Shown in pieces: positions 1,851 through 14,396 of a stretch of 35,256 nt of DNA (its first letter is position 1; the number at the start of each line of letters is the position of its first letter). Position numbers and translations under genes: made by a program. The stretch spans positions 1 to 35,256 of the IMG/VR virus record IMGVR_UViG_3300025168_000285; one strand, written 5' to 3'. The stretch is from a virus. The notes under the pieces were generated by a model, which saw only the letters and a list, made by a program, of their open reading frames with translations, was not told the DNA's origin and made no database searches.

Positions 1851-2434
1851 ATTATGTATGCTTGTAATTGTTCTAAATGTGAAATGCTATTGTCTAGTTG
1901 TAGTCTGTTTTTATAGAACTCGTTTGTACATCTGTATTCCCCTGAAAATATGTGTTTTGCTTTAACTGGTAACAATGCCTCTAACTGTTCTTTTGTACGA
2001 AAGTATTTAAACTCATTTTTACTGTTGTGATATTTAACGTGTAAGTCTTGGTTCGTAAACTGTATTACTAACACCTTTAAACAATTCATTTTGCTAAACA
2101 GTTCCATAACTTCATAATCGTTTAGATAGTGTAATACATACCTTAAAATGCCTAAGTCATAAAACCCCTCGTGTTCTAATATGTTTTGTAATACGTCTGG
2201 TTGTTTTTCTTTATCCTTGTCTATTGTTACTGCGTGTGGTATGTATTGTTTAATTAACCCGTTTCCACCACCATAATCTCCAACCGAACTTGGAACGTGT
2301 ATTTGGTCGAGTATTTGTCTAATACTGCGTCTGTAAAGATAATCACTTGTTTCATCTTCCCACATTCCAAAGTTAACCCCGTTGTCTACGTTAATAGTTT
2401 TTTTCTGCATACTTGCTAAATTTAACCCACTCAT
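1847..2434 (-). CDS. SAM-dependent methyltransferase next to dpdA
   Basis: A class I methyltransferase fold of up to 195 residues. Motif I is VGDYGGGNG (residues 51-59), an acidic residue pair follows the second strand (ID, 71-72), and a motif IV-like segment is FYDLGILRYVLHYL (92-105). There is no obvious DPPY/NPPY motif of adenine or N4-cytosine DNA methylases and no PCQ motif of C5 enzymes. The ATG at 2434 lies inside dpdA (44-nt overlap); a second ATG at 2410 (residue 9) would leave a 20-nt overlap. Coupling to dpdA suggests that it acts on the modified base or its precursor, for example methylating a carboxyl or amine. It may instead act on a host target. Confidence 0.8.
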   Translation of the reverse strand: MSGLNLASMQKKTINVDNGVNFGMWEDETSDYLYRRSIRQILDQIHVPSSVGDYGGGNGLIKQYIPHAVTIDKDKEKQPDVLQNILEHEGFYDLGILRYVLHYLNDYEVMELFSKMNCLKVLVIQFTNQDLHVKYHNSKNEFKYFRTKEQLEALLPVKAKHIFSGEYRCTNEFYKNRLQLDNSISHLEQLQAYII

Positions 2435-3131
2435 AAAAATTATGTTTTGCTACTTGGTTTGTTTTTACATTCTTCCCGTCTCGTTGGTGTTTGTTAAAAC
2501 GTTTTCCGTTCCATTCATAAACCATTCCAAAACGGTTACCACCAATCCAACTCGTGCTGTCCACACTGTCGAAAGGCATTTTATCTAACATTGTCATTTT
2601 AGTATATCCCAACCCGTGAACCTTAACCCCTTTGCTGTGTGCGTAATCAATTAGTTTTCTTAACTTCTCTGGGTTTTGTCTTGTCCATTTACTTGCGTAC
2701 ATACCACTAGCAGAAATTGCTATGTAATTGTACTCCTCACATATCTGTTTGTAATAATCTGTTCCTAAGAAATAATGGAACACCGGCATTGTTTGTTTAC
2801 CAGTTTCTTTTTCTATTCTTTGGTTTATTATGTCTGTGTCTACCTTTCCAATTAATTGGTAGATGTCTAATTCAAAAAACAATTTAACGTCCCAGTCGTT
2901 TATGAATTTAATATACTTAGAAACATATTCATTAAGGTCTGTTTTAGCACCACCGAAAAAACTAAATGCCCCACTGTCTAACATAAAGTTGTTGTACTTA
3001 TGTATAACTTCTGCCTCGTGTTTACTTATTGCCCAAAAGGTTTCCAATCTATTAAAGTCGTAAAAGTTATCACCACCTAATTTTTCAATCCATAACTTAT
3101 CCCAACCACTTCCCGCTAAATATATTTTCAC
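2391..3131 (-). CDS. dpdA: DpdA-type DNA guanine transglycosylase
   Basis: A homologue of tRNA-guanine transglycosylase that exchanges guanine in DNA for a 7-deazaguanine base. It has 246 residues, about two thirds the length of bacterial TGT, as is usual for phage DpdA. LDSGAF (51-56) corresponds to the DSGGF active-site loop of TGT, and PFDSVDSTSW (186-195) corresponds to the region with the nucleophilic aspartate. The TGT zinc site is absent. The start is GTG, overlapping the upstream TGA as GTGA. It follows queD, queE, folE and a ParB-fold gene in one overlapping operon, which is the main support for DNA rather than tRNA modification. The exact base inserted cannot be read from the sequence. 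Confidence 0.9.
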   Translation of the reverse strand: MKIYLAGSGWDKLWIEKLGGDNFYDFNRLETFWAISKHEAEVIHKYNNFMLDSGAFSFFGGAKTDLNEYVSKYIKFINDWDVKLFFELDIYQLIGKVDTDIINQRIEKETGKQTMPVFHYFLGTDYYKQICEEYNYIAISASGMYASKWTRQNPEKLRKLIDYAHSKGVKVHGLGYTKMTMLDKMPFDSVDSTSWIGGNRFGMVYEWNGKRFNKHQRDGKNVKTNQVAKHNFYEWVKFSKYAEKNY

Positions 3132-3682
3132 AGTCCCAAAAGTTTAAACACAATTTCTTCTTTAGTACCGTCAAGCTCTGCTAACTTGTCTAACACTAAC
3201 TGGTGTTCTTCGTCTGTGTATTCTAAAACAATTTTGTTTGTTTCTTCTTTTGGTTTGTAGTCGTCTACGTCTTCAAATAAATTATCTATGCTAACGTCTG
3301 TGTTTGTAAACTCGAACTCTTTAAAACCAATTTCTAATAATACTTCTTTATCAAAGTGTTCGGTTAACATATCTACATCAAATCTTCCACCCGACTTATT
3401 CATTCTAACGTTTAACTCTTTTTCTTTGTCTAATGTTAAGTCTAATTCTATACACGGAACAACACTCATATCTAACGTTGTACACGCTTTTAAACGTTGG
3501 TGTCCACTTATGATAATATCTTTTCGTTGTTTGTTTACGTTAACTAAAATTGGCTCTACCAGTCCGAAACGCTTTATGCTATCTTGTAGTTGTACCAACT
3601 CCTCCTCTGTTATAACTCTTGGGTTGTATTCAGCAGTTATTAAATCTGTTACTTTTCTTTCTTTAACTTTTACCTTTTTCAT
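3128..3682 (-). CDS. ParB/sulfiredoxin-fold protein, possible DpdB-like partner
   Basis: A 184-residue protein with an N-terminal ParB-type domain: a strand and loop with EYNPR (18-22), a helix LVQLQDSIKRFGLVEPILVN, and the nucleotide-binding motif ISGHQRLKA (58-66). The C-terminal half (after about residue 120) is acidic and unlike chromosomal ParB; I see no HTH for parS binding. It overlaps folE and dpdA by 4 nt on each side. In the bacterial dpd clusters a ParB-like protein, DpdB, is needed with DpdA for base insertion, so a similar role is the best guess. A nuclease or a segregation factor are alternatives. Confidence 0.78.
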   Translation of the reverse strand: MKKVKVKERKVTDLITAEYNPRVITEEELVQLQDSIKRFGLVEPILVNVNKQRKDIIISGHQRLKACTTLDMSVVPCIELDLTLDKEKELNVRMNKSGGRFDVDMLTEHFDKEVLLEIGFKEFEFTNTDVSIDNLFEDVDDYKPKEETNKIVLEYTDEEHQLVLDKLAELDGTKEEIVFKLLGL

Positions 3683-4539
3683 TTTATTAAGTTTAAAAAT
3701 TCTTGTCGTGCGTTTAAATCTGTTTTAAATACACCAGTCATTTTACTGGTTGTTGTAAACGTGTCGTGTTTCTTTACACCCCTCATTTCCATACATAAGT
3801 GCTGTGCCTTTAATACAACAGCAACCCCCAACGGTTTTAATTCCTTTTCTAAGTATTCTGCTACTTGCTGTGTTATTCTTTCTTGGTTTTGAAATTTTCT
3901 ACTAAATGTTTCTAGTGTTCTTGCTAACTTACTTAACCCCACAATTTTCTTATTTGGTATGTAAGCAATATGTCCCTTTCCAAAAAATGGTGCTATGTGG
4001 TGTTCACAAAGTGAGTGAAACGGTATATCTTGTTGAATAATCATTTCATCATAGCCCTCGCTTTTAAATGTTGTAAAGTTAAAATGTGGAGGGGTTAAAA
4101 ATTCTTTAAGAAACTTAACATAACGTTTTGGTGTTTCTTGTAACCCCTCACGGTTTACATCTTGTCCAAAGTATTCTAACAACCTTACCACGTTTTCCTC
4201 TACTTCTTTTTCACCAGTTTCTTCCCACGGAAATTGTATCCACGTATTCTTAAATTCTTTTCGTTTGTCAAATAGAAATACGAACTCTTTTTTTGGGTAC
4301 TTCTTTTTCCATTTCTTGTATGTTGTTCCACTGTCGTAAAGGTCATCAATAATAACATTTGCTAAGTCGGGATGGTCTACTGCTCTGCCCGTCATACCCG
4401 CTACAACTTGTCCACCTCTTGGAATACCATAAAATCTATCATCTGGTTTGTTAAACTTTTTAGTTTTCTCGTACATTGCTTTGTAAATTTCTTGCCAACT
4501 TAATTGGTGTACTTTTACTTCTGTTCTTGTTTCACTCAT
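3679..4539 (-). CDS. folE: Phosphoribosyltransferase-GTP cyclohydrolase I fusion
   Basis: A two-domain protein of 286 residues. Residues about 10-106 are a small type I phosphoribosyltransferase with GIPRGG (38-43) and the PRPP loop VIIDDLYDSGTT (62-73). Residues about 112-275 are GTP cyclohydrolase I, with the zinc ligands C178 and H181 in SLCEHH and C249 in QHLCMEMRG. FolE converts GTP to dihydroneopterin triphosphate, the first step towards 7-deazaguanines. The PRTase half could join guanine released by DpdA to PRPP to make GMP, feeding the GTP pool; that link is my inference. It lies between queE and the ParB-fold gene in a coupled operon. Confidence 0.92.
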   Translation of the reverse strand: MSETRTEVKVHQLSWQEIYKAMYEKTKKFNKPDDRFYGIPRGGQVVAGMTGRAVDHPDLANVIIDDLYDSGTTYKKWKKKYPKKEFVFLFDKRKEFKNTWIQFPWEETGEKEVEENVVRLLEYFGQDVNREGLQETPKRYVKFLKEFLTPPHFNFTTFKSEGYDEMIIQQDIPFHSLCEHHIAPFFGKGHIAYIPNKKIVGLSKLARTLETFSRKFQNQERITQQVAEYLEKELKPLGVAVVLKAQHLCMEMRGVKKHDTFTTTSKMTGVFKTDLNARQEFLNLIK

Positions 4540-4548
4540 AATGTTTTT

Positions 4549-5265
4549 TTAAACTCCAGTTACTTTGTTCCAAATATCTACTTGTAATCTACTTCCAAAG
4601 TAATAATTATTTTCCTTACACATTTCTGCAACCATTGGTGCTAAATCGTTTAACTGTTCTCTACAATCTCCCGCCGGCATTAACACCACCTTTTCTTCTT
4701 TTAAATCTAACAAATCTATTAAGTCTTGTATCTCTGCTAGGTCTTCTTCTTCACACACCACAAATTTAAAAATAGATGAACGGTAGTTATTTATCTGTCT
4801 TAACACATCTGCTTTAATTCTTCTTTCTTCTTTCATACCACTATTACACAACTTTGGCGAACAGTTAATTAAGTCAAACTCCTTTAGTAATTCATTTGTA
4901 AATTCTATTGTTCCGTTGGTTTCTATTTCTAAAAATGGTACGTATTCATATTTCCTATAATACACATCTACAAATTCTTGTATTGCCGCTTGTTGTAACA
5001 TTGGTTCTCCACCCGTAAAAACTAGGTGTGCCCCTTTTGTTAGGTACTTATGAAACCGTTGAAACACATCTTTGACTAAATCTCTAACCAACATTTTTTC
5101 ACCCTTTGTCCAAACTGGTATTGTATCACACACCCAGTCTTTGCTTTTACATAATAAGTTACACGCTTGTAATCTTATAAAGACACTTGGAACACCCATT
5201 GTTATTCCCTCGCCTTGTATAGAATAAAACATTTCGCTTACTCTAATTTCCTCTTTCTTTTTCAT
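4549..5265 (-). CDS. queE: 7-carboxy-7-deazaguanine synthase (radical SAM)
   Basis: QueE converts 6-carboxytetrahydropterin to 7-carboxy-7-deazaguanine. The 238-residue protein has FYSIQGEG (13-20), the radical-SAM cysteines C35, C39 and C46, the TGGEP motif (84-88), EIETNG (113-118) and CSPKLC (135-140), all typical of the family. The cysteine spacing is CX3CX6C rather than CX3CX2C; the segment ends CDTIPVW, as in a QueE subgroup with an insertion in the cluster loop. The start overlaps the end of queD by 23 nt. The purine-rich leader lacks a clear Shine-Dalgarno sequence. Confidence 0.94.
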   Translation of the reverse strand: MKKKEEIRVSEMFYSIQGEGITMGVPSVFIRLQACNLLCKSKDWVCDTIPVWTKGEKMLVRDLVKDVFQRFHKYLTKGAHLVFTGGEPMLQQAAIQEFVDVYYRKYEYVPFLEIETNGTIEFTNELLKEFDLINCSPKLCNSGMKEERRIKADVLRQINNYRSSIFKFVVCEEEDLAEIQDLIDLLDLKEEKVVLMPAGDCREQLNDLAPMVAEMCKENNYYFGSRLQVDIWNKVTGV

Positions 5266-5656
5266 TGTATATTACTTTTGATGTTTTGGTTTCTGCTAAA
5301 CTAATTTCTATTATTGGTAGTTCTCTTTTAATTTGTTGGAATATCCATATTGCCATATTCTCTGCACTGGTTTGAAAGGGCAATTCTATAAACGGTTCGT
5401 TGTCTAATTTTAATAAACTACATAACTCATCTTTTTCCCACAGCAAAAAGTAATGGTCGTATTGTTTTATTACTGGTTCTACAACCTTATCAATGTCACT
5501 GAATAACATTGTTACACCATTTTCGTTTATGTTATCAAAAGCAAAGGTACACACAACGTCGTACGTGTGTCCGTGTAATCTACCACACTTTTCTCCCGCT
5601 GATTTATTTCTGTGTCCAGCGTAGAAATGGTATTTTTTTTCTATGTATAAACCCAT
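5243..5656 (-). CDS. queD: 6-carboxytetrahydropterin synthase
   Basis: QueD makes 6-carboxytetrahydropterin from dihydroneopterin triphosphate. The 137-residue protein has the three zinc histidines H15 (FYAGHRN), H28 and H30 (CGRLHGH), the catalytic cysteine C24, the D67-H68 pair in YDHYFLLW, TSAEN (96-100), and the substrate glutamate E122 in AETKTS. Length and motifs are those of the small QueD/PTPS-III family. It is the first gene of the pathway set in the transcribed order and overlaps queE by 23 nt. Confidence 0.95.
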   Translation of the reverse strand: MGLYIEKKYHFYAGHRNKSAGEKCGRLHGHTYDVVCTFAFDNINENGVTMLFSDIDKVVEPVIKQYDHYFLLWEKDELCSLLKLDNEPFIELPFQTSAENMAIWIFQQIKRELPIIEISLAETKTSKVIYNEKERGN

Positions 5657-7020: not shown

Positions 7021-7322
7021 ACCCTTTCATTTTCTTCTTCCCACACACTGCTACAATGGTCGTTACAACGGTAGCACATTTTCTGGTCAGTGTCCATCTT
7101 TGCCTCACAACAACTACTTACACCACTCCATTCGTCTTCACAGTTACAATCGTCGTTCTCACCACACATTACACAATCCTGGTGTTCTTCACAGTAATCG
7201 CTATTCATTTCTATTTCTTTATCACATAACTTACAACTAGGGTTTGTTCCATTCCATTCTGTTGGGTCGTTACCGTTACTGTTATGTGTTGCCGAAACCC
7301 AGTCTTTAAAATTTAATCCCAT
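7014..7322 (-). CDS. Cysteine-rich zinc-binding protein (102 aa)
   Basis: A 102-residue acidic protein with at least five cysteine pairs: CKLC (about 30-33), C..H in DYCEEHQDC, CVMC, CNC, CC (SSCCEAK), CYRC and a final C. At least two zinc knuckles or ribbons can be built from these. It has very few basic residues, so RNA or protein binding is more likely than DNA binding. It overlaps the GGCT-like gene by 17 nt. Function unknown; inhibition of a host factor is one possibility. Confidence 0.7.
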   Translation of the reverse strand: MGLNFKDWVSATHNSNGNDPTEWNGTNPSCKLCDKEIEMNSDYCEEHQDCVMCGENDDCNCEDEWSGVSSCCEAKMDTDQKMCYRCNDHCSSVWEEENERVC

Positions 7323-7689
7323 AATTATTTTCTTTGTATTCTCCTTTTGTTAATATAAAATTTTCTCTCATTGGGTGTTTGTAAAAGTAACACCACGCTC
7401 TAACCTTTTGTTTATCTTCTAACGTTACACTTATCATTTGTCTTTCGTACAAATCGGGGTGTCCCTCTAACATATCTAAATGTAACATTGTTTTGTAACT
7501 AACTTTGTAAACTTCTCCTTTTACTTGGTGTGTTGCTTTTTGTGTTAGGTAGGGTAAACCGTGTTCGTACAAAGTAAATAAATTGTTTGTTGTTGCTCTA
7601 CCAATAATTTGGCTATTTGCTAGAAACCCACTGTTAGAATATCCAAACTTTAAAGTTCCATAAACAAATACATATTCTTTATTCTCCAT
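7306..7689 (-). CDS. Gamma-glutamylcyclotransferase-like (AIG2/GGCT) protein
   Basis: A 127-residue protein of the GGCT fold: the substrate loop VYGTLKFG (9-16) at the N-terminus, a central catalytic glutamate in MLEGHPDLYER (E75), and a C-terminal W-C-Y-F-Y strand. These enzymes release 5-oxoproline from gamma-glutamyl amines or trim gamma-glutamyl adducts. Phage and bacterial genomes often combine them with amidoligases and class II glutamine amidotransferases, both present here at 13350 and 12041. The three may form one peptide- or metabolite-modifying pathway, or GGCT may act alone. Confidence 0.85.
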   Translation of the reverse strand: MENKEYVFVYGTLKFGYSNSGFLANSQIIGRATTNNLFTLYEHGLPYLTQKATHQVKGEVYKVSYKTMLHLDMLEGHPDLYERQMISVTLEDKQKVRAWCYFYKHPMRENFILTKGEYKENNYGIKF

Positions 7690-12040: not shown

Positions 12041-12964
12041 TTAGTTAATATCATTTCCAAATAACTTTAATTGGTGTTTATTAAACTCCTCGTCTGTCAT
12101 TTCCATTAAACGTTTTGTTTCCTTAACTTCTGTTAACTCATAGTCTGTAATGTCTATTTCGTTAATGTCGTCCCAACCACACGTTTCTATGTTGTTGTCA
12201 AAGTCGTCTGTTATACCACTGTAAACTCCTTTGCTACTCATTGGTAACGTTCTACTGTAATTTCCGTATTTGTTTTTCTGTGGTGTACTGTATTCCCACC
12301 AGTTACGGTTGTCTGTATTGTAACTTGCTATCGGGTCGTGTTCTATGTCTACTTTTTCAATAACAGTGTTACCACTCCACACGTATAATCTACCCTCTTT
12401 AAGTTGGTAAATGTTGTTTAATTTACAGTTAACCAATACATCTTTTAAACTACTAAAATAAACATCACCGTTTTTATCTCTACCACACCATAACGGGTTC
12501 GTTTTTCTGTAAGTGTAGTAATACTCACCTATTGTAAACAACGTTGCTAGTGCCCCACTAAATTTCCCCAGTGTTTTAAAATCGTGTTTTGTTTTGTCTA
12601 ATACTTTAAAAATCATTTGGCTGTCTACTTCTGTTTCACCACAACTAAATTCTTCTCCTACATCTAAGTAATTATACACAACCCCGTTGTGTGCCCCAAC
12701 TACATCACCGTATTTAAACGGGTGTTGGTTGGGTAACGTTCTTGCCCCGTGTGTACTAAAACGGGTGTGTCCAATAAACTGGTTAGTTTTTAACTGTCTT
12801 ACTCTTTGGTGTAGTCCTAAACTTTTTCCTAACACCTTTTCAAATTTATCACCATCATAATATCCCGTACTGTGTCCACCACGTTTATCGTTTGCTATCA
12901 ACAACTGGTTTATTATCGTTGGGTTTGCTTGTCGGTTTCCCGTAAATCCTATTAATCCACACAT
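12041..12964 (-). CDS. Class II glutamine amidotransferase (Ntn hydrolase)
   Basis: A 307-residue protein with the class II glutaminase hallmarks: catalytic Cys2 (MCGLIGF), HTRFSTHG (66-73) and AHNGVVYNY (91-99). These are seen in the N-terminal domains of GlmS, PurF and asparagine synthase, but the synthase or isomerase domain is absent. Residues 110-200 complete the Ntn fold (TEVDSQMIF; ALATLFT). The C-terminal 90 residues are acidic and unlike known relatives. It should release ammonia from glutamine for a partner ligase; the amidoligase two genes upstream is the obvious candidate. Confidence 0.9.
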   Translation of the reverse strand: MCGLIGFTGNRQANPTIINQLLIANDKRGGHSTGYYDGDKFEKVLGKSLGLHQRVRQLKTNQFIGHTRFSTHGARTLPNQHPFKYGDVVGAHNGVVYNYLDVGEEFSCGETEVDSQMIFKVLDKTKHDFKTLGKFSGALATLFTIGEYYYTYRKTNPLWCGRDKNGDVYFSSLKDVLVNCKLNNIYQLKEGRLYVWSGNTVIEKVDIEHDPIASYNTDNRNWWEYSTPQKNKYGNYSRTLPMSSKGVYSGITDDFDNNIETCGWDDINEIDITDYELTEVKETKRLMEMTDEEFNKHQLKLFGNDIN

Positions 12965-13349: not shown

Positions 13350-14396
13350 TTATGAAACCGTAACTTCTACCTGTCCTATTGTACTAAACAATAACGTTCC
13401 TAGTTGTCTTGTTGTCTGGTTTGTATCCGTAACACCTAATAAGTGTAAAAGTGTCTTACGTCCACTCTTAACAGTGTTTCCGTCCTCTTTTACTTCTATA
13501 CCACCGTTGCTTAATTTGTTTACTGTAAACACTGTTGCTGTTAACTCACATACTGCCTCCCATCTCTTAACAACACTAATTGTTTTAACACTTCCAAAGT
13601 TAGTAAACCCAAAATGGTTTGCTCTACCTAACATAAAGTCTAATACAACTTTACTAGTGTGTCCAAAACATTGTTTAAATGCTACCGTTTGCTTAGTTCT
13701 AACAGTTGGTGTAATAACTGTTTCTAACTGGTTACACATTTCAACAGTTGTAATTAACCAGTGTGCCCAGTTTAAAATTTTCTCACTATCTAAACTTCCA
13801 CCGTGTTGTCTAAACTCTACCGTTCTTTGTCTGCTGTATGCTTGTAAATTTACTGTTTGGTATCTTGTACCGTTAAATGCACTAATAACTTCGCTAACAC
13901 TATTACAACCGTTTAACCTACTGTTAATCTGTGTTAAGTCACCGTAATTATTTGCTAATGTATTTGTCCATCTACTGTTTCTTCTGCTTGGTGCTAAAAT
14001 ACTTTGTATTATGTGTTGGTTTTTTGCGTAAAATAAAACAACGTTTTTAATTCCTTGTGTTGTTATATCACTTGCCCCAACGTGTACGTGTATTCCACAA
14101 TCTCTGTTTACTGTAACACCCTCTATATTTGCTAAACAATCTATAATACATTTTGCGTTTTCCATTCCTTTCTTACCACTTAGTATTGGAGAAACCAATT
14201 CTAATCCACACGTGCTGTCAGTTACAATTTTCCAATGGTTTTGTGTTGTGTGGTTGTACCCCTCACCAATACAATCTAATTTTCTAAACTTCTTGTTAAT
14301 GTATTGTGCTAATACGTCTTTACTCATAGAACTTCTGTTTACAAATTCTATCTCTAATCCAAATGTTCTGTCTGTTGTTAATTTTGCTAGTTTCAT
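13350..14396 (-). CDS. Amidoligase (COOH-NH2 ligase family)
   Basis: A 348-residue protein of the putative amidoligase family (glutamine synthetase-like/COOH-NH2 ligase fold). Motifs in order: FGLEIEF (12-18), W55, LELVSPILSG (65-74), CGIHVHVG (100-107), LFYAKNQ (121-127), SRR (137-139) and TVEFRQHGGSLD (192-203). These E, H and R residues bind Mg-ATP in the family. Such enzymes form amide bonds between a carboxyl and an amine, and occur with class II amidotransferases and GGCT proteins as here. The substrate is unknown: a peptide, a cell-wall group or a carboxylated base. It is the first gene after the control region. Confidence 0.88.
   Translation of the reverse strand: MKLAKLTTDRTFGLEIEFVNRSSMSKDVLAQYINKKFRKLDCIGEGYNHTTQNHWKIVTDSTCGLELVSPILSGKKGMENAKCIIDCLANIEGVTVNRDCGIHVHVGASDITTQGIKNVVLFYAKNQHIIQSILAPSRRNSRWTNTLANNYGDLTQINSRLNGCNSVSEVISAFNGTRYQTVNLQAYSRQRTVEFRQHGGSLDSEKILNWAHWLITTVEMCNQLETVITPTVRTKQTVAFKQCFGHTSKVVLDFMLGRANHFGFTNFGSVKTISVVKRWEAVCELTATVFTVNKLSNGGIEVKEDGNTVKSGRKTLLHLLGVTDTNQTTRQLGTLLFSTIGQVEVTVS

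Follow-up and report, generated by a model that had tools for sequence, protein, structure and literature searches.

A xanthine-guanine phosphoribosyltransferase-like domain lacking the flexible loop is fused to GTP cyclohydrolase I in a phage 7-deazaguanine gene cluster

Introduction

Why does a phage encode a phosphoribosyltransferase (PRTase) and GTP cyclohydrolase I (FolE) as one protein, next to a DNA guanine transglycosylase (DpdA)? The gene that raises this question lies on a virus contig of 35,256 bases, possibly a fragment, which we analysed over its full length (the window). A sequence-only reading had proposed that a single protein joins both activities and that the operon holds a closed guanine cycle, in which guanine released by DpdA is returned to GMP and ultimately feeds FolE. 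Here, we examine the two halves of this protein, its gene neighbourhood and its relatives, and weigh what the PRTase domain may do.

Results

The fusion gene lies in a 7-deazaguanine operon

The minus strand of the window carries the gene order queD-queE-PRTase/folE-parB-dpdA:

5243..5656, minus strand: QueD (6-carboxytetrahydropterin synthase; PF01242 at 7.3e-26; PHROG 2389)
4549..5265, minus strand: queE (PHROG 2076, E=2.9e-56)
3679..4539, minus strand: PRTase-FolE fusion open reading frame, 286 aa, ATG start
4210..4539, minus strand: N-terminal loop-less PRTase domain resembling xanthine-guanine PRTase (XGPRT), residues 1-110
3679..4200, minus strand: C-terminal GTP cyclohydrolase I (FolE) domain, residues 114-286, stop included
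3128..3682, minus strand: ParB_N-domain protein (PF02195 at 1e-9; PHROG 620 at 8.5e-32)
2391..3131, minus strand: DpdA-like DNA guanine transglycosylase, 246 aa (PHROG 887, queuine tRNA-ribosyltransferase, 1.4e-43)

The stop codon of the fusion gene overlaps the ATG of the downstream parB gene (ATGA), parB has stop/start overlaps with both the PRTase-FolE gene and dpdA, and only 9 nt separate the queE stop from the fusion gene. Since the gene ends overlap or nearly touch, queD to dpdA read as one operon. DpdA, FolE, QueD and QueE are thereby all present in the cluster according to Pfam and PHROG, and the window also encodes portal, head-protease and tape-measure proteins. We found no QueC, Gat-QueC or separate QueF in the 35,256 bp of this possibly fragmentary record, and the pathway may therefore end at 7-carboxy-7-deazaguanine (CDG). 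Further genes on the minus strand encode a gamma-glutamyl cyclotransferase (7306-7689), a class-II glutamine amidotransferase that lacks a QueC half (12041-12964) and an amidoligase (13350-14396), which possibly form a separate set that modifies peptides or metabolites.

The C-terminal half is a typical FolE by sequence (Pfam PF01227, E=1.1e-64, residues 114-285; PHROG 2197, E=2.1e-61) and by fold (T. thermophilus 1wm9, Foldseek 2.4e-22). The entire domain resembles GTP cyclohydrolase I of T. thermophilus (1wm9) and human (7alb), with 42% identity and the C/E/H/H/C residues in common; while those enzymes have a short N-terminus, the fusion bears the PRTase domain there instead. C178, E179, H180, H181 and C249, which we take to be the zinc and active-site ligands of FolE, are identical in all 78 fused viral proteins that made up our conservation set (51 of them at <90% identity).

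The N-terminal half belongs to the XGPRT-like PRTases

The N-terminal half stayed under the Pfam threshold (PF00156, 15.9 bits versus a cut-off of 26.3, residues 62-76). It matched PHROG 8995, 'phosphoribosyl transferase', at 6.5e-7 and, among PDB sequences, a xanthine PRTase at 2.5e-4. AlphaFold2 models reached a pLDDT of 92.8 for the whole protein (54 homologues) and 93.1 for the N-domain alone (51 homologues). The closest PDB entry to the N-domain model was E. coli XGPRT (Foldseek 3.3e-5), to which 101 residues aligned across XGPRT 3-143 (VIA Z 12.3, rmsd 2.3). The nearest solved structures were E. coli and Y. pestis XGPRT, guanine and GMP complexes among them, and other fold families gave weaker matches. 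That one protein joins a PRTase-family domain to FolE was thus borne out by the 286-aa frame, the FolE Pfam match and the PHROG, PDB and fold matches of the N-domain.

The residues expected to hold the substrates are conserved throughout the 78 proteins. In the PPi loop (R41-G42-G43), which follows the (S/P)RGG pattern, R41 and G43 are invariant and G42 occurs in 74. In the PRPP loop IIDDLYDSGTT (63-73), D65, D66, D69, S70 and T73 are found in 78/78 and G71 in 77/78. Likewise, the base pocket retains K92, W100 and P104 in every protein, E106 in 77 and W105 in 71, the remainder having F. D65, D66, D69, K92, W100, P104, W105 and E106 align by phmmer with XGPRT D88, D89, D92, K115, W134, P138, W139 and D140, numbered as in the aligned Y. 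pestis (5xtk) and E. coli (1a95-type) chains. We take K115, W134 and D140 of XGPRT to be the lysine, the stacking aromatic and the acid of the purine pocket, and D69 (XGPRT D92) presumably sits beside purine N7. In HGPRT, the available text of PMC2228302 describes GMP binding by the equivalent lysine and aromatic residue.

Taken together, sequence, predicted fold and pocket residues support a PRTase domain of the guanine/xanthine type. Since the purine pocket and both loops are all kept, binding of PRPP together with a 6-oxopurine, or of a mimic of both, has most likely been preserved. Such a mimic is (p)ppGpp, seen in HPRT to stand in for PRPP and purine together, as far as the available text of PMC6783271 reports.

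The catalytic flexible loop is deleted

The phage domain shares with XGPRT (Gpt; E. coli 1a95/4jls, Y. pestis 5xtk/6kp5) the fold (Z 11-12), both loops and the K/W/P/acid pocket. However, XGPRT comprises ~150 aa, whereas the phage domain comprises ~105 aa, is fused to FolE and lacks the hairpin of the flexible loop as well as part of the hood strand. Relative to XGPRT, ~29 residues are gone from the stretch that links the PPi and PRPP loops, and ~11 ahead of the W100 hood. For 73 of the 78 fused domains the PPi-to-PRPP spacing was measured and came to 18-27 residues, after correction by eye in two cases; the other five domains were judged short by eye. Among the matches listed, 75 of the 80 measured genomic homologues have 46-72 residues there, the five short ones being L099-L103. 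Two fusions that had appeared to bear the loop (L070 and L071, spacing 46) turned out to be an artefact of the regular expression. The loop is also missing from the secondary structure of the AlphaFold2 model. That is, the catalytic flexible loop (loop II) is deleted in 78/78 fused domains.

In type I PRTases this loop covers the active site, and its loss speaks against the catalysis that the sequence-only reading had ascribed to the N-domain. The description of this half as a PRTase consequently holds for family and PRPP loop, but not for a complete enzyme, given the ~29 and ~11 residues missing.

The fusion recurs in phages, mostly close to dpdA

Matches to the whole protein occurred in 381 of 50,697 named phage records, mostly through the FolE half, and matches to the N-domain in 33. 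The fusion is thus not unique to this contig. Carriers include Nipunavirus, VpKK5, PaMx25 and MMDA13; in Nipunavirus, VpKK5 and MMDA13 it is annotated only as FolE, and many database records label the PRTase-FolE protein plain 'GTP cyclohydrolase'. PaMx25 seemed to have separate PRTase and folE genes, but a single long open frame (L011 8862-9792) has been split in its record, and the gp38 annotation refers to another, overlapping frame rather than to the PRTase frame.

We scanned IMG/VR with N-domain patterns alone and analysed the best 80 of 324 relatives. Among them, L019 has the same sequence as the window and one contig is present twice (L003, again as L059). FolE adjoined the N-domain in all of these best 80 of 324 loci, fused in 78 and as a neighbouring frame of its own in L068 and L083. 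With 33 named phage records out of 50,697 and 78 of the best 80 IMG/VR loci carrying it, the fusion is no chance event. Among the best 80 of 324, QueE was present at 78 loci, QueD at 72, ParB at 62 and QueC at 26. DpdA was detected at 65/80, rising to 69/80 after profile iteration, and the 11 loci without a DpdA match were each at most 10,040 bases long. This agrees with the co-occurrence of PRTase-FolE architecture and dpdA anticipated from the sequence. Within the named fusion records, 20 of 33 were among the 60 DpdA matches listed, and five more have a neighbouring DpdA/TGT gene. As a separate observation, 33 of the best 80 of 324 loci combine DpdA and ParB with no QueC.

Compared with the dG+/dPreQ0 clusters of 9g, CAjan and VpKK5, the window has DpdA, FolE, QueD and QueE in common. 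Clusters of that type combine DpdA with QueC, whereas no QueC was found in the window and a ParB-domain gene adjoins dpdA. VpKK5, PaMx25 and MMDA13 have the same fusion, while 9g gave no PRTase match in the N-domain search of named phages.

Two loci depart from the fused arrangement. In L068 (7974-9054) and L083 (4141-5179), the PRTase is a gene of its own with a short FolE-like remnant, beside a FolE of different sequence, and judged by these sequences the FolE partner has been swapped. As the PRTase was kept when FolE was replaced, its job seems not to be tied to one particular FolE. In 51 sequences, the identities of N-domain and FolE co-vary (r=0.55, Mantel P=0.0005), which a joint history would predict, and no more.

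Stand-alone relatives accompany QueE and FolE

PRTases of the same family (PHROG 8995) exist as separate genes in Cellulophaga phage phiST and Immutovirus (gp211). The 131-aa Immutovirus protein is loop-less like the window domain, but is encoded separately, one gene upstream of folE, in the order queD-queE-PRT-folE-dpdA, the last gene being annotated as DpdA. The phiST PRTase, unlike the window domain, keeps its loop. A scan with the Immutovirus PRTase returned 133 loci; among the best 80 of these, none was fused, FolE was present at 72, QueE at 67, QueD at 57 and an Immutovirus-type transglycosylase at 51. Among those of the best 80 of 133 spanning at least 12 kb, FolE was found at 45/46, QueE at 44/46 and the transglycosylase at 38/46. 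The PPi-to-PRPP spacings of these best 80 of 133 were 24-38 residues, with one at 45.

Further phage PRTases were found by tblastn. The gene adjoins QueE in MIJ3 and in Synechococcus phage BUCT-ZZ01, the latter with QueD, FolE and a 416-aa protein nearby; it adjoins FolE, a dNMP kinase and ribonucleotide reductase (RNR) in MaInes and a dNMP kinase, with RNR nearby, in phiST, and has a radical-SAM gene nearby in CP220 and F379. The spacing is long in phiST (48), BUCT-ZZ01 (44) and MaInes (54). The CP220 and MIJ3 PRTases are divergent, with intermediate spacing (MIJ3 36; CP220 about 36 by eye), and the former shares ~24% identity with that of phiST. QueE and FolE were present in all eight records tested, a selection from the named PRTase phages (CP220, F379, MaInes, MIJ3, BUCT-ZZ01, phiST, Immutovirus and VpKK5). 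The Pfam TGT profile PF01702 matched none of eight phage records searched, not even VpKK5 with its known DpdA, and is thus uninformative on DpdA absence; PHROG 887 likewise misses other DpdA types. The 416-aa protein of BUCT-ZZ01 (L295 9161-10411), recorded as 'hypothetical' and belonging to PHROG 10773, has a DSGG motif that we take to be TGT-like, and is perhaps an unannotated transglycosylase.

The fusion is rare in cells

Among the 80 cellular genome loci listed, at least two, L099 and L102, have the PRTase fused to FolE. L102 (7857-8828) lies on a Ca. Peribacteria chromosome contig beside genes for dihydrofolate reductase (folA) and thymidylate synthase (thyA), both named from their sequences alone, and its PPi loop reads PKSG, not PRGG. 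On a symbiotic plasmid of Sinorhizobium chiapasense, a fusion with N at the D69 position (L210 9899-10792) is part of a queD-fusion-queE-queC cluster near nodD2. DpdA was not found in the 20.8-kb stretch of this plasmid; a PHROG 887 search of the entire plasmid was empty, as were its controls.

In the phylum to which L102 belongs, one genome out of 379 contained the fusion, namely the probe itself. In the class of L170, none of 385 genomes did so at E≤1e-90, with a profile that recovered two known fusions at 2.9e-119 and 4.0e-133. These counts rule out that the fusion is widespread in cells, so that the sequence-only reading is not refuted by a broad occurrence in genomes without dpdA. Its tie to dpdA, put forward from the sequence, therefore stands as a tendency (69 of the best 80 of 324 loci) but not as a strict coupling, since the Peribacteria and Sinorhizobium fusions have no DpdA nearby. 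As a separate observation, L101 (7995-8381) and L103 encode a loop-less PRTase of 128 aa that stands alone; across the family to which a Prochlorococcus genome belongs, 52 of 151 genomes have such a protein.

Discussion

From the domains, the fold, the conserved residues, the loop deletion and the gene linkage, all directly observed, we infer a substrate, an activity and a direction for the N-domain. Our favoured reading, held tentatively and with somewhat less than even confidence, is that it works as a guanine sink, in the form of a minimal guanine PRTase. The fusion would be a bifunctional protein serving the 7-deazaguanine DNA-modification operon of the phage. Its C-domain would be a normal FolE that provides pathway entry from GTP. 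The N-domain would be a loop-less descendant of XGPRT that still holds PRPP and a 6-oxopurine; both are likely bound, because PPi loop, PRPP loop and base pocket are kept together. Base exchange by DpdA would free guanine, which the N-domain would capture and give back as GMP, probably with slow turnover without the loop. Guanine removal may thereby pull the exchange forward and prevent a pile-up of the insoluble base, and host GMP and GDP kinases would rebuild GTP.

Guanine is soluble to only tens of µM. For CAjan, the available text of PMC6884629 gives 70,628 dPreQ0 per million nt. By our arithmetic, this amounts to ~8,500 guanines per 60-kb genome and, if 100 progeny and a volume of 1 fL are assumed, to ~1.4 mM. 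We favour the guanine sink because DpdA exchange would free guanine at this load. DpdA near 69 of 80 fused loci (best 80 of 324) fits the same reading, as do loop-bearing PRTases in similar places in phiST (dNMP kinase), BUCT-ZZ01 (QueE) and MaInes (FolE).

Several observations count against a sink. The flexible loop is missing in 78/78 fused domains, and hosts usually possess a guanine PRTase of their own. The domain is absent from other dpdA phages (9g-type, Dp-1, L004-L006 and L008), and it is therefore dispensable there. Conversely, the Peribacteria and Sinorhizobium fusions have no DpdA nearby, and CP220 carries a family member within a phage group that lacks DpdA according to the available text of PMC6884629. 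Of the guanine cycle proposed at the outset, the guanine-type pocket and the usual co-occurrence with DpdA hold up, while the missing loop, the DpdA-free relatives and the fact that GMP is not a FolE substrate weaken it. A closed cycle inside one protein is not supported: the PRTase product would be GMP, FolE needs GTP, and as two outside kinase steps lie between them, the fusion cannot channel.

A loop-less PRTase domain could alternatively be no enzyme any more, but a control domain that binds PRPP, GMP or (p)ppGpp as a signal and thereby adjusts how much GTP is used by FolE. The deletion of the catalytic loop in 78/78 domains would follow naturally, and so would the constancy of FolE as partner, at 80/80 fused loci (best 80 of 324) and 45/46 stand-alone loci of at least 12 kb (among the best 80 of 133), even in the folate setting of Peribacteria and the queuosine-type setting of Sinorhizobium, where D69 is replaced by N. 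However, a sensor of GMP only or PRPP only would not require invariance in both loops and in the purine pocket at once. Moreover, the PRTase was kept on the FolE swaps in L068 and L083, lies distant from FolE in CP220, phiST and MIJ3, and has loop-bearing relatives in the same kind of phage. We regard a control domain as possible, though rather unlikely. Doubtful, and a step less probable again, is the combined proposal that a purine PRTase is an unnamed recurring part of phage 7-deazaguanine systems with or without DpdA, whose loop-less form is a PRPP- or (p)ppGpp-responsive gate on GTP use, welded to FolE.

The PRTase might also make a nucleotide from the finished 7-deazaguanine base (CDG, preQ0 or ADG), for incorporation at the dNTP level or a later step. 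QueE and FolE accompany the PRTase in 8/8 named phages tested, CP220 and F379 included, and in phiST and MaInes it sits with a dNMP kinase and RNR. In CP220, 100% of dG is replaced by dADG in the available account of PMC8306585, and for the Campylobacter phages of its group, which lack DpdA, the available text of PMC6884629 proposes a modified dGTP route. Yet the CP220 PRTase is very divergent (~24% identity to that of phiST), and DpdA, which takes the free base, is present in the window and at most fused loci. In addition, the invariant D69 (XGPRT D92) would face the C7 substituent. The deazaguanine-nucleotide alternative, also raised from the sequence, thus draws on a divergent PRTase in a DpdA-less phage with fully substituted DNA, but is disfavoured for the window because DpdA is present and D69 invariant; we consider it quite unlikely here, though possible for the wider PRTase family in view of CP220. 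Least probable, and very unlikely in our estimate, is general salvage of guanine from degraded host nucleic acid to feed GTP to FolE with no special tie to DpdA, which would suit the FolE links in the DpdA-free settings of Peribacteria and Sinorhizobium and the dNMP kinase and RNR links of phiST and MaInes, but not the strong tie to clusters bearing QueE and QueD.

In the literature searched, which was covered in part, we found no description of a PRTase-FolE fusion or of a PRTase as a part of the pathway. The word 'phosphoribosyl' is absent from the main text of PMC6884629 and PMC7472734, and the available text of the former names no step for the fate of the guanine released by DpdA. The parts are known; what appears to be unreported, as far as we looked, is how they are combined, that the loop is deleted and that the linkage extends across the pathway.

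The domain would be an unusually small natural PRTase without its catalytic loop, and would offer a way to probe what this loop is for. For the phages, each base modified through DpdA exchange must free one guanine, which adds up to thousands per genome. Linked to FolE and QueE in either of two architectures and across many phage lineages, the PRTase is a candidate for the missing guanine step or, alternatively, for the nucleotide-level route of phages that lack DpdA.
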